A stretch of DNA of 40,038 bases from NCBI GenBank assembly GCA_003242085.1, contig QBML01000043.1:1-40038 (forward strand). The letters run 5' to 3'. The position numbers and the translations under genes were made by a program. Below the pieces are notes generated by a model, which did no database searches, had not been told where the DNA came from, and worked only from the letters and a program-made list of their open reading frames with translations. The DNA is from Pseudanabaena frigida (lineage in GTDB: Bacteria > Cyanobacteriota > Cyanobacteriia > Pseudanabaenales > Pseudanabaenaceae). Positions within the stretch are counted from its first letter, which is position 1. Each line of letters begins with the position of its first letter. Below are positions 122 to 37,989 of the stretch, piece by piece.

Positions 122-1036
122 TTATATCGGTACTGCTAACTCAGCACCTAAAGGAAATCCTAATGCTTCCCTTTGGCTGTAGTAGAGTTTGGCAACTTGA
201 CGAGCTAAATTGCGAATCCGCCCGATATAGCGCACTCGCTCAGTTACCGAGATTACACCTCTGGCATCTAGTAAGTTAAAAGAATGCGAACATTTCAAAA
301 CGTAATCGAAGGCTGGTAGTACTAGTTCAGACTTGAGTAAATTTTCTGCTTCCTTTTCATACTGCAAAAACAATTGGAACAACAAGTCAGAATCCTGTGG
401 CTTTCCACCAAAGTTACCGAAGTTATAGCCGCTATGTTCGACTTCGCCTTGGTGATGCACTTGACCATATTTGATGTCGCCCAACGTTGGGTGCGATCGC
501 CATACAATGTCATAAACCGAGTCTACCCCTTGCAAATACATCACTAGGCGTTCGAGACCATAGGTAATTTCCGCAGAAACGGGACGACAGTCCAATCCCC
601 CAACTTGTTGAAAATAAGTAAACTGAGTGACTTCCATTCCATCAAGCCAAACTTCCCAACCTACGCCCCAAGCGCCGAGTGTCGGTGATTCCCAATCATC
701 TTCAACAAAGCGCACATCATGATCGGCGGGATCGATACCTAAATGCTTAAGACTATTGAGATATAGATCCAGCACGTCATCGGGAGATGGCTTGAGAATC
801 ACCTGAAATTGATAGTAATGTTGTAAGCGATTGGGATTTTGTCCATAGCGTCCATCGGTAGGACGGCGACATGGCTCGACGTAGGCAACACTCCAAGGTT
901 CAGGGCCGATCGCTCTCAAGAAAGTATGCGGACTCATCGTGCCAGCCCCTTTCTCGATATCGTAAGGCTGAGCAATCAAACATCCGCGATCGCTCCAATA
1001 CTTTTGCAACGCCAAAATAACCGTCTGAAAATCCAT
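122..1036 (-). CDS. glyQ: Glycine--tRNA ligase alpha subunit
   Basis: Catalytic alpha subunit of the bacterial (alpha2-beta2) glycyl-tRNA synthetase, which charges tRNA-Gly in the cytoplasm together with GlyS. The 304-residue product has the full family length. It opens with [18 protein letters not shown] and contains the class II core stretches [38 protein letters not shown] and [15 protein letters not shown], which are hallmarks of GlyQ. The ATG start is the natural one. The glyS gene is not in this window; separate glyQ and glyS loci are usual in cyanobacteria. The gene reads leftwards into a strong palindrome. Identification is very secure. Confidence 0.97.
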
Positions 1037-1452: not shown

Positions 1453-2166
1453 TTGAATTTTCAGATTATCCGTTACGAAGATATAGACTCGACTAATAGT
1501 GAAGCTTGGCGATTAATCGATCGCCTTGAAGCATCATCAAAAACAGTAATTATTGCTAAGCATCAAACTAAAGGAAGAGGTCAACGCGGTAATAGTTGGC
1601 AGTCAGATTTAGGTGGACTATTTATGTCCGTGATTTTGCAGCCAAACATAGCAGCATCACAGGCAAATCAAATTACACTTTGGACGGCCTGGGGAATTGC
1701 CCAAGCCCTGAAAGAAACAGGTGCGAATGTCAAGATCAAGTGGCTGAATGACTTATTAATAGATCGCCGCAAATTAGGTGGAATTCTTACCGAAACGCGA
1801 ATCGAAGCAAACAAAATTTGTTTCGCTGTGGTGGGGATCGGCATCAATTGGACAAATGAAGTTCCTGAAGGGGCGATCGCACTAAGCGAATTACCTACAA
1901 CTTTGTCGAGTATGGATGAACTGATCGAGGTGGTGTTATCGGGTATTGAGCTAGGGCAGACACGCAGCGATCGTGAAGGTATCACAGGCATTTTGGCGGA
2001 ATATTTGGAGATGCTCAATAGTAAAAATGTGAGTAAAACGGTTAATGGGCGGGAACTTCAAGGTCAAATAATCGACATTAGACCAACAGGCGAACTGGTA
2101 GTAAGATGGGAAGGCAATTCTTCAGATGCAATCTATCAGCCTCAAAATTTTTCTGTCGGCTATTAG
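1453..2166 (+). CDS. birA: Biotin--[acetyl-CoA-carboxylase] ligase
   Basis: Biotin protein ligase, which activates biotin with ATP and attaches it to the biotin carboxyl carrier protein of acetyl-CoA carboxylase. The 237-residue product is the short, monofunctional form without an N-terminal DNA-binding domain. Visible motifs are the biotinyl-AMP binding loop KGRGQRGNSWQSDLGGLFMS (around residues 44-63), IKWLNDLLIDRRKLGGILTE and VVGIGINWTN, followed by a small C-terminal SH3-like domain. The start is TTG; no in-frame ATG fits the family N-terminus (MNFQIIRYEDIDSTN). The stop is 12 bases before the peptidase start, so the two probably share a transcript. Confidence 0.95.
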   Translation: MNFQIIRYEDIDSTNSEAWRLIDRLEASSKTVIIAKHQTKGRGQRGNSWQSDLGGLFMSVILQPNIAASQANQITLWTAWGIAQALKETGANVKIKWLNDLLIDRRKLGGILTETRIEANKICFAVVGIGINWTNEVPEGAIALSELPTTLSSMDELIEVVLSGIELGQTRSDREGITGILAEYLEMLNSKNVSKTVNGRELQGQIIDIRPTGELVVRWEGNSSDAIYQPQNFSVGY

Positions 2167-25063: not shown

Positions 25064-26122
25064 TTAAATAATTATTGGACTGAATAAAGAAATCTGTTCA
25101 GGATATCTTAACTGTCGTAAACGTCTGCAAATTCCAATGGATTGATAATCTTGAATATCTAAAATTATTTTTCTAGCGATCGCTTCAGCAAAATTAACTG
25201 GAACTGCATTACCTACCATCTTATAACCATCATTAATATTAGAATATTTAAAAATAAACTCATCAGGAAAAGTCTGAATCCTAGCGCATTCTCTAACAGA
25301 TAATCTACGATAAGGTTTAGGGGAATTTGGGTCGAATATCCTTTTATCTTTCTCAACAAAGATCATTTTATTTGCTTGAGGATGAATTGGGGCGTGTCTC
25401 CCTCCAGCTTGAATTGTAAAAGATGGCTCATCCCAATTGCGTACTCGATTTCGAGACATATAAATACTAGAAAAACTACTGTCTAAATATTCATGATTAG
25501 GAATTGTAGATATAGTTTGATTTGATTTTGTAATAGCAATAGGTTCTACTAAACTTAAATCATAGATGGCATCTTTAAGAGTAGGAATTTTGCCACTGTC
25601 TTGGGGAAATTCAAAAATTCCTCCAATATCTTGGCGATAGCCAACAATAATTACCCTTTTGCGATCTTGAGGTACGTTGAAATTTACCGCATTTAAAAGC
25701 TTATAAGCTATTTCGTAACCAGATTCTTTGAACATAGCTAAAATATTTGCGAAAGCATGGCTATGCCTTTCAGATAGAATTCCACTTACATTCTCAGCAA
25801 CAAAAAAAAGCGGTTTTTTATCTTGTACGATTCTTATATATTCATAAAATAGTTTTCCCCTTGCATCATTAATACCTCTACCTGCACCAGCCTCACTCCA
25901 ACTTTGACAAGGTGGCCCCCCAATGATGCCAATACAATCTGGTATTTCTGAAGATTTAATACTTCTAATATCTCTTTTGTCTAAATTAATATTTGTATGG
26001 TTAAATTCATAGGTATCCCAAATCGATTTGTCATATTCATTGGCAAAAATAATGTTGAATCCTGCCTTCTGAAAGCCAAGATCTAGTCCACCACACCCTG
26101 AAAATAGCGATACAATATTCAT
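25064..26122 (-). CDS. DNA (cytosine-5) methyltransferase, HaeIII-like (GGCC)
   Basis: A 352-residue C5-cytosine methyltransferase. Motif I is LFSGCGGLDLGFQKAGF; motif IV IIGGPPCQSWSEAGAGRG carries the catalytic Cys 72; motif VI is FFVAENVSGIL; motif VIII PQDRKRVIIVGYR; motifs IX-X are RRLSVRECARIQTFPDEF and NDGYKMVGNAVPVN. The variable region includes NHEYLDSSFSSIYMSRNRVR and AGGRHAPIHPQA. These match M.HaeIII as I remember it across the target recognition region, so GGCC methylation is predicted. It follows the nuclease gene by eight bases. The gene is AT-rich and has only one GCGATCGC octamer, unlike its neighbours. Confidence 0.93.
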   Translation of the reverse strand: MNIVSLFSGCGGLDLGFQKAGFNIIFANEYDKSIWDTYEFNHTNINLDKRDIRSIKSSEIPDCIGIIGGPPCQSWSEAGAGRGINDARGKLFYEYIRIVQDKKPLFFVAENVSGILSERHSHAFANILAMFKESGYEIAYKLLNAVNFNVPQDRKRVIIVGYRQDIGGIFEFPQDSGKIPTLKDAIYDLSLVEPIAITKSNQTISTIPNHEYLDSSFSSIYMSRNRVRNWDEPSFTIQAGGRHAPIHPQANKMIFVEKDKRIFDPNSPKPYRRLSVRECARIQTFPDEFIFKYSNINDGYKMVGNAVPVNFAEAIARKIILDIQDYQSIGICRRLRQLRYPEQISLFSPIII

Positions 26123-26130
26123 AGTAAAAT

Positions 26131-26991
26131 CTATCTCTTATATATAATGATTTTTGAGTTTAATAGCTTAACTGGGTTATTAGGAGATTTAATCTGAATA
26201 TCTTTAATCTCCAAATTTTTGTTACTTGAAAGATTTTCTAATTCCTGTCTAATTCCTTTGGGAAAAGACATATATTTACTTTCTTGCATTACCACAATCA
26301 TCAGAAAGTCATCGTTTTCATCATAATCAATGTCCATGTAGTCATAAATATTGATTGGGTTCTCTATTCCCCACATTCCTCTGACTCTAAGGTAAGTTAT
26401 TCCAAGAGGATCGACCTTGTTAACCCTTGCTAGTTCGTTAGTCTCAGCAAACTCAATTCCTAAAATTTGATTAATACCATCGCAGATACCACTTCTAATT
26501 CTTTCATAAACTTGTTTTTCTGCTGCAAAGCAATCTCCATATACGAACCATAGTACTTTTAGTCGGTTTTGTGACTTTGGAACTACTCCGACAGCATAAA
26601 TAATATCTTTGACATTCCACGAATCTTCACAATTACGGCAAGCATTTGTAATCATCGGATCTATAGCGAATAGTTTGGATTTTGGATATGAACTATTTAG
26701 GGCAATACCTGCTTTTAATGATTCAATTTTTTTCACTTCTATAGCGTCACCATTCTTTAAAATTAAGTCTGGAGGATTATTAGAGTTGCCTTCATAGGAG
26801 AAGAATTTTGGATAAATATTTATTCCTTTATCTTTTAAATCTAATCCAAAAGAATTACAAAAAGCATCTTTAATAAAAAGCTCTAAACTATCACCAACAG
26901 CATTAATCTTATTCCTACTTCGAAAATAATTAACCAAATCTAATTCGTTATTATTTACAATGTTGATAATTGCTTTTAATAAATTAGTCAT
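26131..26991 (-). CDS. Type II restriction endonuclease, NgoPII-like
   Basis: A 286-residue nuclease that should cut unmethylated GGCC as partner of the adjacent methyltransferase. It opens MTNLLKAIINIVNNNELDLV and has the family-like RNKINAVGDSLELFIKDAF. The probable PD-(D/E)XK centre is PPDLILKNGDAIEVKKIES, with Asp and EVK in the right order. A cluster NACRNCEDSW could bind a metal or structure a loop. The gene is very AT-rich without HIP1 octamers, a sign of transfer. It comes first in the pair, only 38 bases from the divergent ycf20 start. Family assignment is from remembered sequence style plus the M.HaeIII-like neighbour. Confidence 0.85.
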   Translation of the reverse strand: MTNLLKAIINIVNNNELDLVNYFRSRNKINAVGDSLELFIKDAFCNSFGLDLKDKGINIYPKFFSYEGNSNNPPDLILKNGDAIEVKKIESLKAGIALNSSYPKSKLFAIDPMITNACRNCEDSWNVKDIIYAVGVVPKSQNRLKVLWFVYGDCFAAEKQVYERIRSGICDGINQILGIEFAETNELARVNKVDPLGITYLRVRGMWGIENPINIYDYMDIDYDENDDFLMIVVMQESKYMSFPKGIRQELENLSSNKNLEIKDIQIKSPNNPVKLLNSKIIIYKR

Positions 26992-27029
26992 TTCTTAGAA
27001 ATTTTTAAATTATATTTTAAGAGATTTTT

Positions 27030-28121: not shown

Positions 28122-28303
28122 AAACAAATCTAGTGTTTTAATTTGCACTACGCATCATAGCAGACACTAGATGTAGAAAAAGTTTGTAAAGCTTACTTTA
28201 TTATTTCTTATTGGCCGATCTATTAAAATAAATAGATAAAATACACAGCCGTATGTCTCAGTTGTATTTATAACGCATCAGGCGATCGCATTACCTGAAA
28301 TTT

Positions 28304-30996: not shown

Positions 30997-31617
30997 TCAT
31001 ACAACCTGAAAAATCACAGAGAGATTATTTGCTGGCATTGCTTGCACCTTCGGCATTGCTAAATTGTTTTTAGCAGCGATCGCAACTACATCTTCTAGAT
31101 CGCGAACTCCCCACTCAGGATTTTGATAGCGCAAACTCGCATCAAAATCGGCATTGCTATCGCTGGTATGCTTTCCATTTTGTTTGAACGGGCCATAAAG
31201 ATATAAGATCCCGCCAACTGGCAATAGATTCTTCGCCCCCGTCATTAACCCTAAACAGGCAGCCCAAGGCGAAATATGAATCATATTGATATTTACGATC
31301 GCCTGAATTGATTGATTCTGCGAAGGAAAGCGATCGCTCCATTCTGGGTTGGTAACATCGATAACTAAAGGTTCAGATAAGTTGTCCGATGGATAATGTT
31401 CCTGCCAAGCGGTAATACTAGCGATCGCTAATGGATTTGGATCGGATGGAATCCATTTACGTGGTTGTAAACTTGGTGCAAAAAAGACTGCATGTTCACC
31501 AGTTCCACTGGCAATTTCTAGAACAGTCCCTTCAGGGGGCAAAACCTGTAAAAGTACATCTAAAATGACATCGCGATTTCGCAAAGTTGCGGGGGCGTAC
31601 TGACGGATATCTTGCAT
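30997..31617 (-). CDS. DUF938 SAM-dependent methyltransferase
   Basis: A 206-residue class I methyltransferase of the DUF938 family. The SAM-binding glycine motif is VLEIASGTGEHAVFFAPSL (from about residue 32), preceded by the family start YAPATLRNRDVILDVLLQVL and followed by WIPSDPNPLAIASI, INMIHISPWAACLGLM and LLPVGGILYLYGPFKQNG. The natural substrate of this family is unknown. It is the last gene of a leftward series, separated from the TPR gene by 100 bases containing two family C repeats. Confidence 0.9.
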   Translation of the reverse strand: MQDIRQYAPATLRNRDVILDVLLQVLPPEGTVLEIASGTGEHAVFFAPSLQPRKWIPSDPNPLAIASITAWQEHYPSDNLSEPLVIDVTNPEWSDRFPSQNQSIQAIVNINMIHISPWAACLGLMTGAKNLLPVGGILYLYGPFKQNGKHTSDSNADFDASLRYQNPEWGVRDLEDVVAIAAKNNLAMPKVQAMPANNLSVIFQVV

Positions 31618-31717: not shown

Positions 31718-33607
31718 CTAACCTTGTCGATAGCGATCGATTAGATTTGGGAGATGGTCAAATCCATCAACACCAATTTGAGCGATGAATTGAGATCGCT
31801 GCTGTTGCAGTAGATTTAAGAAATTTTCTGCACCTAGCTTGCCCTGCAAAATAACGACCAAAGCCGCAGATTGTTGCCATGCTTTACTATGGCGCTGATC
31901 GAGAAGATACATTCCCAAACAAGCATGATGAGTCGCAGTTTCTAGTTGGTTAAGCTGATAGTAAGCTTCACCAAGATAAGCATAGCTGAGGGCTTGTAAA
32001 TCGCGATCGCCGATTTGTTGAGCTAAAGATAAGCCTTTTTCTAGGGCAATCTGCGCTTGGTGTGGCTGCTCGATCGCGACATAGGCAGTTCCTAAACCAG
32101 CCCAACAAAGCGCCTGATTTTGCAAATCGTTGAGTTTCTCTGATAGTTTTTGCCCACGTTCCAAATGACTAATTGGCGATTCTAGTTCCTCTGGAGTTAC
32201 AGATTCTTGGTGTCGCGCGATCATCACTTCGCTATAGCCCAAGTTAGCCAGAGCATTAGCTTCACCTTGGCGATCTCCATTCTGTCGCGCCAAGATCACT
32301 GCTCTTTGAGCAGAGGATTCACTCATACTAAAGTCTTTTTGATGTAGGCTAATTCGACTGAGATGATTGAGATTAGCAATTTCACAGCGTTGATCGCCCA
32401 CCTCACGGGCAAGACTTAAAGCTTCTTGATGCAAGGCGATCGCTTGTTTATGATGTCCCATCCAAGCTTGGGAATAACCTAACACCGTCAAAATTCGTGC
32501 TTTCTCTTGAGTGTTTTCTGATTCCTTAAGTGGCTGATCGAGGTAGTTAATAGTCTCGCGAAAACTCTCCCCTGAAAAGGATGCGAATACACCTCCATAG
32601 AGGGGAAAGTTCTCACGTTGAGCAAAAGTCCGTAGAGTCTGTAAACTAATCCGAAAACAGATTTTCGCGAGATATTGGCGATCGCGATCAGATAATTGTT
32701 GGGCTTTTTGGAATCCACTGCTGAGTTCACCCCAGATCATGGCAAATGCCACAAAGGTGACACCTGTCATATGCAGCCCCGCTCTAGCATCATAGGGTTG
32801 TTGATCGAACCATCGCACTAATCCATTTTGTAAATATCGCAATAGAATTGAAAGCTCTACCCAAGCACTCAGATCGATACTTCTTTGGGCTTGCGCGATC
32901 GCTGCTGCTGATTGATTGAGAGCTTGCCCTGCAAATAGCTCTTTTGGTAAAGGACTACTAATCTGTTGCGCCCAACTATGCCACGGGCCAGCAACTTTAG
33001 AGCGCTCAAATCCTACTTGTCGCTGTGGTTCGTATAGCCAACTTACGAGGGAACCTTCTAATAGGTCAAAGGATGCCAAGCCACGAGTTAATCCACTTGC
33101 AAACTGGCGAAGTTCAAAAGCTGTGGAATCATCGGGCAGAGTTTCAGCTGTCTTTTGGCATAATTGGGCTAATAGTTGAATGTGTTGGCGTTCAAAAACT
33201 GGCGTATGGTTGGGGTCAAGAACTTGAATTAAAGTCAATAGACGATCTTGAGTTTCGGCATTGAGAATTGTTTGTAAACCTCTAGTGCAAGTATCCTGAA
33301 CTTGATAGTTGTTTTGCCACTGTTCCCATGCATCTTTAAGGATTTTCATGGCACGGAGATTTTGAGTTGCCTTTGCCTGTTTTACCACGTCGGTTTGGGC
33401 ATCAAAGTTTGACTGAAGCGCGTTAGCATGTTCTTCTAAAGCACGTTCAAATATTTCCCCTGTTCCCGCTTCTAAACTCTCGCTGAGAATGCGATAGACA
33501 TGTTCCTTTGATAGCAATTTGCCATTATTTATGTTGATAATTATCCGCTCAACAAAAATAAGATACCGTTCGCGTGTTGTTAAAGGTTTGCTTTCTGAAT
33601 CCGACAT
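31718..33607 (-). CDS. TPR repeat protein
   Basis: A 629-residue soluble protein. The first 350 residues form a helical region that I cannot assign. From about residue 370 to 600 there are at least five tetratricopeptide repeats, for example ARILTVLGYSQAWMGHHKQA, CEIANLNHLSRISLHQKDFS, GEANALANLGYSEVMIARHQ, NQALCWAGLGTAYVAIEQPH and LQALSYAYLGEAYYQLNQLE. TPRs bind other proteins. It lies 73 bases downstream of a Ser/Thr kinase gene on the same strand, so it may be a partner or substrate of that kinase; this is inference from position. Confidence 0.8.
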   Translation of the reverse strand: MSDSESKPLTTRERYLIFVERIIININNGKLLSKEHVYRILSESLEAGTGEIFERALEEHANALQSNFDAQTDVVKQAKATQNLRAMKILKDAWEQWQNNYQVQDTCTRGLQTILNAETQDRLLTLIQVLDPNHTPVFERQHIQLLAQLCQKTAETLPDDSTAFELRQFASGLTRGLASFDLLEGSLVSWLYEPQRQVGFERSKVAGPWHSWAQQISSPLPKELFAGQALNQSAAAIAQAQRSIDLSAWVELSILLRYLQNGLVRWFDQQPYDARAGLHMTGVTFVAFAMIWGELSSGFQKAQQLSDRDRQYLAKICFRISLQTLRTFAQRENFPLYGGVFASFSGESFRETINYLDQPLKESENTQEKARILTVLGYSQAWMGHHKQAIALHQEALSLAREVGDQRCEIANLNHLSRISLHQKDFSMSESSAQRAVILARQNGDRQGEANALANLGYSEVMIARHQESVTPEELESPISHLERGQKLSEKLNDLQNQALCWAGLGTAYVAIEQPHQAQIALEKGLSLAQQIGDRDLQALSYAYLGEAYYQLNQLETATHHACLGMYLLDQRHSKAWQQSAALVVILQGKLGAENFLNLLQQQRSQFIAQIGVDGFDHLPNLIDRYRQG

Positions 33608-37290: not shown

Positions 37291-37989
37291 ATGATTGAGC
37301 TCTACTATTGGCCCACCCCAAACGGTCATAAAGTTACTATCTTTTTGGAAGAAGCAGAACTAGAGTACGAAATTCTCCCCATCGATATTCGGGTTGGCGA
37401 TCAATTCAAGCCAGAATTTCTCAAGATATCACCTAACAACCGAATGCCCGCGATCGTCGATCGCCATCCAGTAGATGCAGGATCGGCGATATCCGTATTT
37501 GAATCTGGCGCAATTTTGCAATATCTTGCGGAAAAAACAGGAAAGTTTTTGCCAGCTAATTTGCGCGATCGCATAGCTGTAATGGAATGGCTATTCTGGC
37601 AAATGGGTGGCTTAGGACCAATGGCAGGACAAAACCATCACTTTTCTCAATATGCACCCGAAAAAATTCCCTACGCGATCGATCGCTATGTTAAAGAAAC
37701 TAATCGCCTCTATGGAGTTTTAAACCGTCAACTTGAAGGAAAAGATTACATCGTCGGTGCGTACTCAATCGCAGATATGGCTACCTATCCGTGGGTAATG
37801 CTTCATAAACATCAACAGCAAAATATCGAAGACTTTCCGAATATTCAAGCTTGGCTAAAGAGAATCGGCGATCGCCCTGCGGTAATTCGTGCCTATGAGC
37901 AAGCTAAACCCTTTGCAAATCTGCCGACGATTACGGAAGAGAGCAAAAAAATTCTCTTTGGTCAAACTGCGGCAAATTTACAAAAATAG
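37291..37989 (+). CDS. YfcG-like (nu-class) glutathione S-transferase
   Basis: A 232-residue glutathione transferase of the YfcG/nu class, which in E. coli acts as a glutathione-dependent disulfide-bond reductase. The thioredoxin-like half has YYWPTPNGHKVTIFLEEAEL, ISPNNRMPAIVDRHP and FESGAILQYLAEKTGKFL; the helical half has WLFWQMGGLGPMAGQNHHFS and SIADMATYPWVMLHKHQ. Thr and Asn in PTPNGHK are the known nu-class catalytic positions. ATG 37291 matches the family start; an open frame extending 27 codons upstream is not needed. A family B palindrome follows the stop. Confidence 0.95.
   Translation: MIELYYWPTPNGHKVTIFLEEAELEYEILPIDIRVGDQFKPEFLKISPNNRMPAIVDRHPVDAGSAISVFESGAILQYLAEKTGKFLPANLRDRIAVMEWLFWQMGGLGPMAGQNHHFSQYAPEKIPYAIDRYVKETNRLYGVLNRQLEGKDYIVGAYSIADMATYPWVMLHKHQQQNIEDFPNIQAWLKRIGDRPAVIRAYEQAKPFANLPTITEESKKILFGQTAANLQK

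Follow-up and report, generated by a model that had tools for sequence, protein, structure and literature searches.

A 40,038-nucleotide stretch of DNA from the cyanobacterium Pseudanabaena frigida, called the window below, is an entire contig of a 5.39-Mb genome (G000) and carries two adjacent genes on the same strand that correspond to a C5-cytosine methyltransferase of the M.HaeIII type and a restriction endonuclease of the NgoPII family (Table 1). A sequence-only reading of the window had proposed both assignments with GGCC as the predicted site, and profile searches and alignment bear them out. The sequence GGCC is rare around these genes, and this scarcity is part of a genus-wide avoidance of several restriction sites that appears to extend to the amino acid sequences of many proteins.

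The methyltransferase aligns through residues 1-319 with M.HaeIII (PDB 1dct), with 181 of 317 aligned residues identical (57%, E 2.3e-115), and the alignment covers the target-recognition region. It scores 283 bits against TIGR00675 (cut-off 100.65), and the conserved motifs of the C5 family are present. Methyltransferases with 55% identity are taken to share a target in the accessible part of PMC10359461, and the 57% identity to M.HaeIII lies above this value, so the two enzymes count as related in target recognition under that rule. The nuclease exceeds the cut-off of the Pfam RE_NgoPII profile (25 bits) by more than 340 bits over the full profile length, and PADLOC labels it a Type II REase. 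It matches RE_NgoPII alone; a search of this genome with RE_HaeIII gave no match, and a search of the PDB with the nuclease returned zero matching chains. NgoPII cuts GGCC. Of 80 homologues, 79 keep residues P74, D75 and K87 and all keep E85, and we take these four positions to be the PD-(D/E)XK site, such that the presumed catalytic residues of the window nuclease are intact.

Among 80 loci on genome contigs that encode such nucleases, a gene resembling the methyltransferase was seen in 75, in 72 of them within 300 bp and on the same strand. Judged by its sequence, the window pair is an ordinary Type II restriction-modification system with GGCC as its predicted target. It resembles the HaeIII and NgoPII systems in its HaeIII-like methyltransferase, its NgoPII-family nuclease and the adjacency of the genes on one strand, and differs from the HaeIII system in that the nuclease is NgoPII-like instead of HaeIII-like, a combination that is common. 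A search of the same genome for an N6/N4-type methyltransferase (PF01555), as a candidate protector of GGCC across the genus, yielded a single sub-threshold match.

Table 1. Features of the window and, in the last four rows, of loci in related genomes (positions are those of the window unless a locus is named)
Feature	Position	Strand	Evidence or context
C5-cytosine methyltransferase, M.HaeIII type, 352 aa	25064..26122	-	PF00145 321 bits; predicted GGCC protection
NgoPII-family restriction endonuclease, 286 aa	26131..26991	-	PF09521 368 bits; predicted GGCC cutting
38-bp gap separating the nuclease and DUF565 genes, which start divergently	26992..27029		open reading frame (ORF) coordinates
Flanking gene, response-regulator domain and DUF3685, 592 aa	23196..24974	-	PF12452 282 bits, PF00072 56 bits
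Flanking gene, DUF565 protein, 117 aa	27030..27383	+	PF04483 70 bits
GGCC site	904..907		Gly-Pro codon pair
GGCC site	1686..1689		Thr-Ala codon pair; protein does not force the site
GGCC site	25914..25917		sole Gly-Pro codon pair of the methyltransferase gene, within the GGPPCQ motif
GGCC site	28213..28216		outside called ORFs
GGCC site	31191..31194		Gly-Pro codon pair
GGCC site	32986..32989		Gly-Pro codon pair
GGCC site	37310..37313		Trp-Pro codon pair (always spells GGCC)
Protein beside M.HaeIII-like gene	L012:553-1506	+	
Protein beside M.HaeIII-like gene	L017:2539-3420	-	
Protein beside M.HaeIII-like gene	L013:2001-2873	-	
Protein beside M.HaeIII-like gene	L015:1218-2102	-	

The sequence-only reading had counted GGCC by eye about seven times in the window, against a random expectation of many tens. 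The exact count is seven, with two of the proposed positions moved (903 to 904 and 28211 to 28213) and the others correct, and the expectation is 81.5 (standard deviation 8.6) from dinucleotide-preserving shuffles or 75 from a maximal-order Markov estimate. The scarcity reaches beyond the window: five other 20-kb segments of this genome contain one to seven GGCC each, where 31-41 are expected. CCGG, which the earlier reading had not considered, is depleted even more strongly, with none in the window against 37 expected, and GGNCC and CCNGG are lost as well. Placed on ORFs of 100 aa or more, the seven remaining GGCC sites fall into four Gly-Pro, one Trp-Pro and one Thr-Ala codon pair, with one outside called ORFs.

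To compare genomes, samples of about 8-140 kb, which are parts of genomes, were taken from each. Of 138 stretches fetched, nine consisted entirely of N and were dropped (two each from G005, G009 and G036, and one each from G013, G030 and G031), which removes G036 entirely; G009 and G036 were left out of dipeptide and unforced-site counts because of their size. ORFs were called mechanically. In first-order Markov terms, the observed/expected (O/E) ratios pooled for the genus are 0.04 for CCGG, 0.07 for GGCC, 0.13 for GGNCC and 0.16 for CCNGG. CCGG and GGCC are the lowest two of 256 patterns without a spacer, and GGNCC and CCNGG the lowest two of 256 with a spacer of one. The nine GGNNCC words that contain no inner site are divided: the GGYRCC words (GGTGCC 0.06, GGCACC 0.11, GGTACC 0.04, GGCGCC 0.005) and GGATCC lie at 0.005-0.11, and the others at 0.69-0.90 (GGAACC 0.90, GGTTCC 0.84, GGCTCC 0.84-0.90, GGAGCC 0.69). 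GCGC (0.90) and CGCG (1.06) occur about as often as expected, and GATC more often (1.78). Since GCGC, CGCG, GATC, GGAACC and GGTTCC are not avoided, the avoidance is specific to enzyme sites and does not concern palindromes at large.

The depletion is strongest where a site can be removed synonymously. Outside the sites dictated by Trp-Pro (WP), Gly-Pro (GP) and Pro-Gly (PG) dipeptides, which we call unforced sites, 25 of the 26 genus members together retain 84 GGCC of 2191 expected, 14 GGWCC of 549, 34 CCGG of 1681 and 20 CCWGG of 874, such that escapable sites stand at 0.02-0.04 of expectation.

This avoidance is shared by all 26 genus members (GGCC O/E at most 0.18 and CCGG O/E at most 0.19 in each), whereas an M.HaeIII-like protein is found in 11 of them (E <= 1e-60) and an NgoPII-type nuclease in four. 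Unforced GGCC is as scarce in the 15 members without an M.HaeIII-like protein (43 against 1161 expected, 0.04) as in the four with the nuclease (18 against 546, 0.03). Within the genus, therefore, GGCC avoidance does not follow the system that a genome presently carries, and the age of the window pair cannot be read from it. The sequence-only reading had named equal avoidance in relatives without the pair as the outcome that would speak against its proposal, and this is the outcome observed. Its view that the avoidance records long exposure holds, as the best reading, for the lineage and GGCC-cutting systems in general, but not as evidence about this pair.

Of nine genomes from other genera of the family, five have GGCC at 0.18 or less (G026, G027, G032, G033 and G034), and the pair is found only in G032. 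In other families, GGCC lies at 0.5-1.0 in 18 of 22 genomes, the exceptions being G049 (0.22), G050 (0.39), G051 (0.32) and G055 (0.09), the last of which carries the pair. On a larger scale the pair and GGCC avoidance do go together: across phyla, the 61 NgoPII-type loci of at least 8 kb among 80 fetched have a median O/E of 0.20 for GGCC and 0.74 for CCGG.

The enzymes of the genus are diverse. Besides the window pair, G000 encodes a fused C5 methyltransferase and HpaII-type nuclease of 686 aa (contig C5:210613-212670; L005:106-2166, minus strand), whose HpaII-type domain scores 340 bits against PF09561 and which has a relative in G011 that is 80% identical. Contig C9 of the same genome contains a C5 methyltransferase gene and an Eco47II-type nuclease gene with one in-frame stop; this pair is present in the assembly in two copies (48065-49988 and 71558-73481) that are about 23.5 kb apart and encode the same proteins. 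We presume that the fused protein targets CCGG, and the predicted target of the Eco47II-type gene is GGNCC. HpaII-type nucleases are found in five of the 26 genus members (one as a fragment), Eco47II-type in six and HaeIII-type in one. The pattern in the genus is thus one of enzyme turnover alongside a constant set of avoided sites.

Although its date cannot be taken from GGCC counts, the window pair was said by the sequence-only reading not to be a recent arrival, and other evidence favors this part of the claim. In the window the pair lies between the DUF3685 and DUF565 genes. Searches for these flanking genes in 38 genomes (23 from the genus) found the two head to head without the pair in four (51 bp apart in G002, G020 and G021, and 60 bp in G013). 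The DUF3685 gene adjoins the methyltransferase gene in G022, and the DUF565 gene adjoins the nuclease gene in G017; in the remaining 18 of the 23 genus members the two flanking genes are far apart or on separate contigs. The window proteins are 84-87% (methyltransferase), 76-77% (nuclease), 74-75% (DUF565) and 64-71% (DUF3685) identical to those of G022 and G017. The pair has therefore diverged about as much as its neighbors, or somewhat less, and at least one neighbor is common to three divergent species. The common site and these levels of divergence suggest that the pair is an old resident of the lineage that was lost elsewhere, although repeated transfer of the pair together with flanking DNA could also account for the common site.

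Some sites cannot be removed without changing a protein. Trp-Pro (TGGCCN) always contains GGCC, Gly-Pro (GGNCCN) always contains GGNCC and Pro-Gly (CCNGGN) always contains CCNGG. When 399 dipeptides are compared with their levels in 17 control cyanobacteria, no others are as depleted in the genus as these three. Trp-Pro was counted as a prior prediction; Gly-Pro and Pro-Gly surfaced as the next lowest and were explained afterwards. The controls were picked by hand from the remaining genomes, omitting further avoiders of GGCC and some genomes of extreme base composition. In the genus, 37 WP are observed where 201 are expected, 250 GP where 942 are expected and 337 PG where 941 are expected; the corresponding figures for the controls are 60 of 118, 288 of 534 and 483 of 532. 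Pro-Pro (PP; 607 of 648) and Gly-Gly (1457 of 1367) are normal in the genus. Correlations across 56 genomes, which do not depend on the choice of controls and carry no phylogenetic correction, are 0.66 between WP and GGCC and 0.77 between PG and CCGG/CCWGG.

Taxa with other avoided sets lose other dipeptides. In the DIFFERENTIAL tests, a sister genus (g2, represented by G026 and G033) avoids GGCC (0.07) and GGWCC (0.22) but not CCWGG (1.54); its WP (1 of 15) and GP (25 of 81) are depleted, but PG is normal (84 of 81). G055, from another family, has the same pattern, with PG at 34 of 38. Sixty loci with NgoPII-type nucleases outside the family supplied a further comparison. In the 15 loci that are low in both GGCC and GGWCC, GP is at 62 of 214 (0.29) and WP at 7 of 42 (0.17); in the nine that are low in GGCC only, GP is at 76 of 111 (0.68) and WP at 3 of 18 (0.16); and in the 14 with GGCC at 0.4 or above, GP is at 116 of 173 (0.67) and WP at 18 of 30 (0.60).

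The same loss is visible at homologous positions in 105 aligned protein pairs. None of 10 WP dipeptides of other cyanobacteria is retained in the genus. GP is retained at 16 of 59 positions, against 16 of 22 in the reverse direction, and PG at 27 of 106, against 27 of 33; Phe-Pro and Tyr-Pro have no such asymmetry. Trp-Pro is most often replaced by Trp-Gln (4 of 10 positions), which is over-represented in the genus (456 against 237 expected, with 162 against 118 in the controls).

The most extreme case is found in phages. In the 100 of 137 kb of the Pseudanabaena phage PA-SR01 that were read, GGCC (159 expected), CCGG (101), GGWCC (71), CCWGG (94) and GATC (253) are all absent, as are GGNCC and CCNGG altogether. 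Only three of the 400 dipeptides are expected more than three times and yet missing, namely PG (69 expected), GP (69) and WP (10.6); PP (47 against 39 expected) and Gly-Gly are normal. A sequence without GGNCC and CCNGG necessarily encodes no GP or PG; the notable point is that the proteins of this phage have changed to allow such absence. Phage Pam2 (50 of 143 kb) has the same absences. All 24 close PA-SR01-type loci tested share these absences and lack GP, PG and WP; 14 of these were found through the terminase (at least 79% identity) and 10 through the capsid gene, the latter being 10 tested of 29 and partly on the same contigs as terminase loci.

Fifteen more distant terminase loci were also collected (L276-L290), and nine of over 10 kb were tested, of which one is PA-SR01-like, one partly so and seven unlike. 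The first (L288, 25% identity) has no GGCC of 57 expected, no CCGG of 41, no GP of 14 and one PG of 14. The second (L286) has 14 GGCC of 24, one CCGG of 13, no GGWCC of 8, no CCWGG of 12, no GP of 8.5 and one PG of 8.5. Among the seven, L282 and L284 keep GGCC and have GGWCC at 1 of 16 and 1 of 20 with GP at 1 of 16 and 1 of 17, and the other five exhibit no broad avoidance. Three of four control cyanophages do not avoid GGCC; the fourth, the Planktothrix phage PaV-LD, has GGCC at 0.11, GGWCC at 0 of 74, GP at 6 of 44 and PG at 28 of 44.

What is observed here are gene identities and the numbers of sites and dipeptides, together with the way these vary jointly from taxon to taxon; from this we infer cleavage as the selecting agent. 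Pseudanabaena and its relatives may long have carried Type II systems that changed over time and partly overlapped in specificity (GGCC, CCGG, GGNCC and probably CCNGG), of which the window pair would be one. Unprotected sites would be cut in the cell's own chromosome whenever a methyltransferase was lost, lagged or was diluted, and incoming DNA and phages without sites would survive preferentially. Repeated exposure to nucleases would thus remove sites from chromosomes, down to the 2-4% of expectation seen for those that can be removed synonymously. Where amino acids force a site, the protein itself would change, leaving WP, GP and PG at 18-36% in hosts and at zero in the stretches read from the PA-SR01 family. 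Selection through Type II cutting is suggested by the 25- to 50-fold loss, the sharp specificities, the loss even in frames where deamination would alter the protein, and the complete absence of sites from the stretches read of one phage family, and we consider it highly probable that long selection by changing systems of this kind purged the sites and altered the dipeptides. Very probably, also, there has been protein-level selection against dipeptides whose codon combinations all spell a site, both in Pseudanabaena and in unrelated taxa with the same avoided sites and, to completion in every stretch read, in the PA-SR01 family, so that protein sequences would carry a legible record of past restriction even where the enzymes are gone.

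Several observations weigh against this account. Most genus members have no recognized nuclease for GGCC or CCGG (NgoPII-type in 4 of 26, HaeIII-type in one, HpaII-type in five), and no CCNGG nuclease was identified, although the EcoRII-C model was silent in every genome searched, controls included, which makes this negative uninformative. PP, which is not depleted overall, is also retained unequally in the two directions between aligned proteins (11 of 63 against 11 of 23), and the two lowest dipeptides of the control cyanobacteria are likewise WP (0.51) and GP (0.54). At low counts, WP is 1 of 7.3 in G056 though GGCC is 1.05, and 0.60 in G003 and G008 despite low GGCC. G032 avoids GGCC and GGWCC, yet has GP at 10 of 13 and PG at 13 of 13 in only 3,721 codon pairs, and six genomes that avoid GGWCC and keep GGCC have GP at 98 of 220, little below the controls. 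Finally, GGCC is not avoided (0.67-1.25) in nine other phages isolated on Pseudanabaena (Pan1-5, Pam1 and Pam3-5, with 30-37 kb of each read), which implies that they have some other protection or that GGCC restriction was not active in their hosts at that time. Avoidance of GGWCC is seen in some of these phages (Pan2 0.01, Pan3 0.05, Pam1 0.15), and CCWGG is low in Pan3 (0.08), Pam1 (0.27) and Pan4 (0.30), in which PG is at 0.36-0.52.

Four other explanations were weighed. That the window pair alone, as a long resident, caused the GGCC avoidance would agree with its intact genes, with neighbors common to three species and with the tendency of NgoPII-type loci across phyla to be GGCC-poor, but it is very unlikely given the equal scarcity in the 15 genus members without an M.HaeIII-like protein and the equally strong avoidance of CCGG, GGWCC and CCWGG, which are not expected targets of the pair. 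Sites might instead have been lost by deamination of 5-methylcytosine to T (in GGmCC and CmCGG) with no selection from cutting. The window methyltransferase is of the C5 type, and 5-methylcytosine positions are prone to mutation. If, as we assume, the internal C of GGCC is the methylated base, deamination changes an amino acid in one codon frame (xxG|GCC) and is silent in another (GGC|C), yet GGCC is equally depleted in the two (53 of 1197 and 68 of 969). PA-SR01 phages also lack GATC, which is usually methylated at A and not at C, and a complete absence of sites would be hard to reach by deamination in a phage that the accessible part of its description calls lytic. We regard deamination as very improbable.

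The dipeptides themselves could be avoided for a reason of protein structure or translation, for example slow peptide-bond formation with proline, and the loss of motifs could be secondary. The low WP and GP of the control cyanobacteria fit this idea, but PP is normal in the genus, motif loss at unforced sites (0.02-0.04) exceeds dipeptide loss, WP and GP are lost in g2 and G055 while PG is retained, as the CCWGG content of these taxa predicts, and PA-SR01 lacks no further dipeptide with an expectation above 3; of all the alternatives we find this one the least credible. A general avoidance of G+C-rich palindromes or hairpins, with a structural or replicative cause and without restriction, is most unlikely. 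The genus is indeed poor in many six-base palindromes, other cyanobacteria are so to a lesser degree, and avoidance of GG-N(k)-CC weakens as the spacer lengthens. Against this stand the ordinary frequencies of GCGC and CGCG, the enrichment of GATC, the split among GGNNCC words and the different avoided sets of other cyanobacteria, such as CGCG with GCWGC in G050.

To our knowledge, restriction-site avoidance has usually been treated as a synonymous, DNA-level effect. Site avoidance itself is well known; here it very probably reaches amino acid sequences as well. According to the accessible parts of PMC4687349 (2015) and PMC6286503 (2018), Type II sites are under-represented in prokaryotic hosts and phages, as they are here; the present case differs from what those parts describe in that the avoidance is genus-wide whichever system is present, and in that protein sequences have changed. 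The terms "amino acid", "synonymous" and "codon" are absent from the available main text of PMC6286503, and "amino acid" is absent from the available text of PMC4687349. In the accessible portion of Elhai 2015 (PMC4390886), which deals with solitary methyltransferases and site counts in cyanobacteria, rCCGGy is under-represented in most DmtD strains, and GrCGyC is under-represented together with its methyltransferase whether or not the nuclease is present; avoidance of GGCC, GGNCC and CCNGG in Pseudanabaena, and dipeptides, are not treated in that portion. The discussion of PMC10359461, in the part available, considers 6-mers freer in synonymous change, which is close in spirit to our results. 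The papers on PA-SR01 (PMC7431792) and Pam1-5 (PMC9382816) describe phages analyzed here, and a figure legend in the latter mentions that Pam2 was aligned with PA-SR01. As far as their main texts were accessible, neither contains "restriction" or "palindrom". Among the matches listed in a search of the open-access literature, there was no report of a protein-level effect of site avoidance.

If our interpretation is correct, avoidance has been strong enough to alter amino acids in many proteins, and the PA-SR01 family illustrates the protein-level cost that phages pay to escape nucleases. The relation between avoided sites and the dipeptides that fall with them is a simple, falsifiable rule that is applicable to all sequenced genomes and may help to infer the restriction enzymes of a phage's hosts. 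It is also a warning that DNA defence can shape protein statistics.

Some further observations concern possible enzymes and other avoided sets. A protein of about 293-317 aa is encoded beside the M.HaeIII-like gene in G003, G006, G009 and G010 (Table 1). Two of the four were scanned and had no Pfam match above cut-off and no PADLOC or NCBIfam match, and one searched in the PDB had no match; these proteins may represent a new family of GGCC nucleases. Contig C33 of G000 (L006:1474-3663) encodes a C5 methyltransferase that matches the PADLOC DrmMII model, and the ORF that follows it resembles, by eye, a GHKL-type ATPase. GGWCC is nearly gone (O/E 0.00-0.02) in samples of G028, G029, G043 and G053, which keep more GGCC (0.31-1.17). 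The G050 sample (L140), from another cyanobacterial family, has CGCG at 0.03 and GCWGC at 0.08, a different avoided set. GATC is absent from all that was read of the PA-SR01-type phages (L247, L260, L261 and L262-L275), although their host genus is enriched in it, and these phages also lack many six-base palindromes. Near the terminase of Pam2, a gene at L261:2064-3905 bears a toxin-like product name, an apparent misannotation in a cyanophage.

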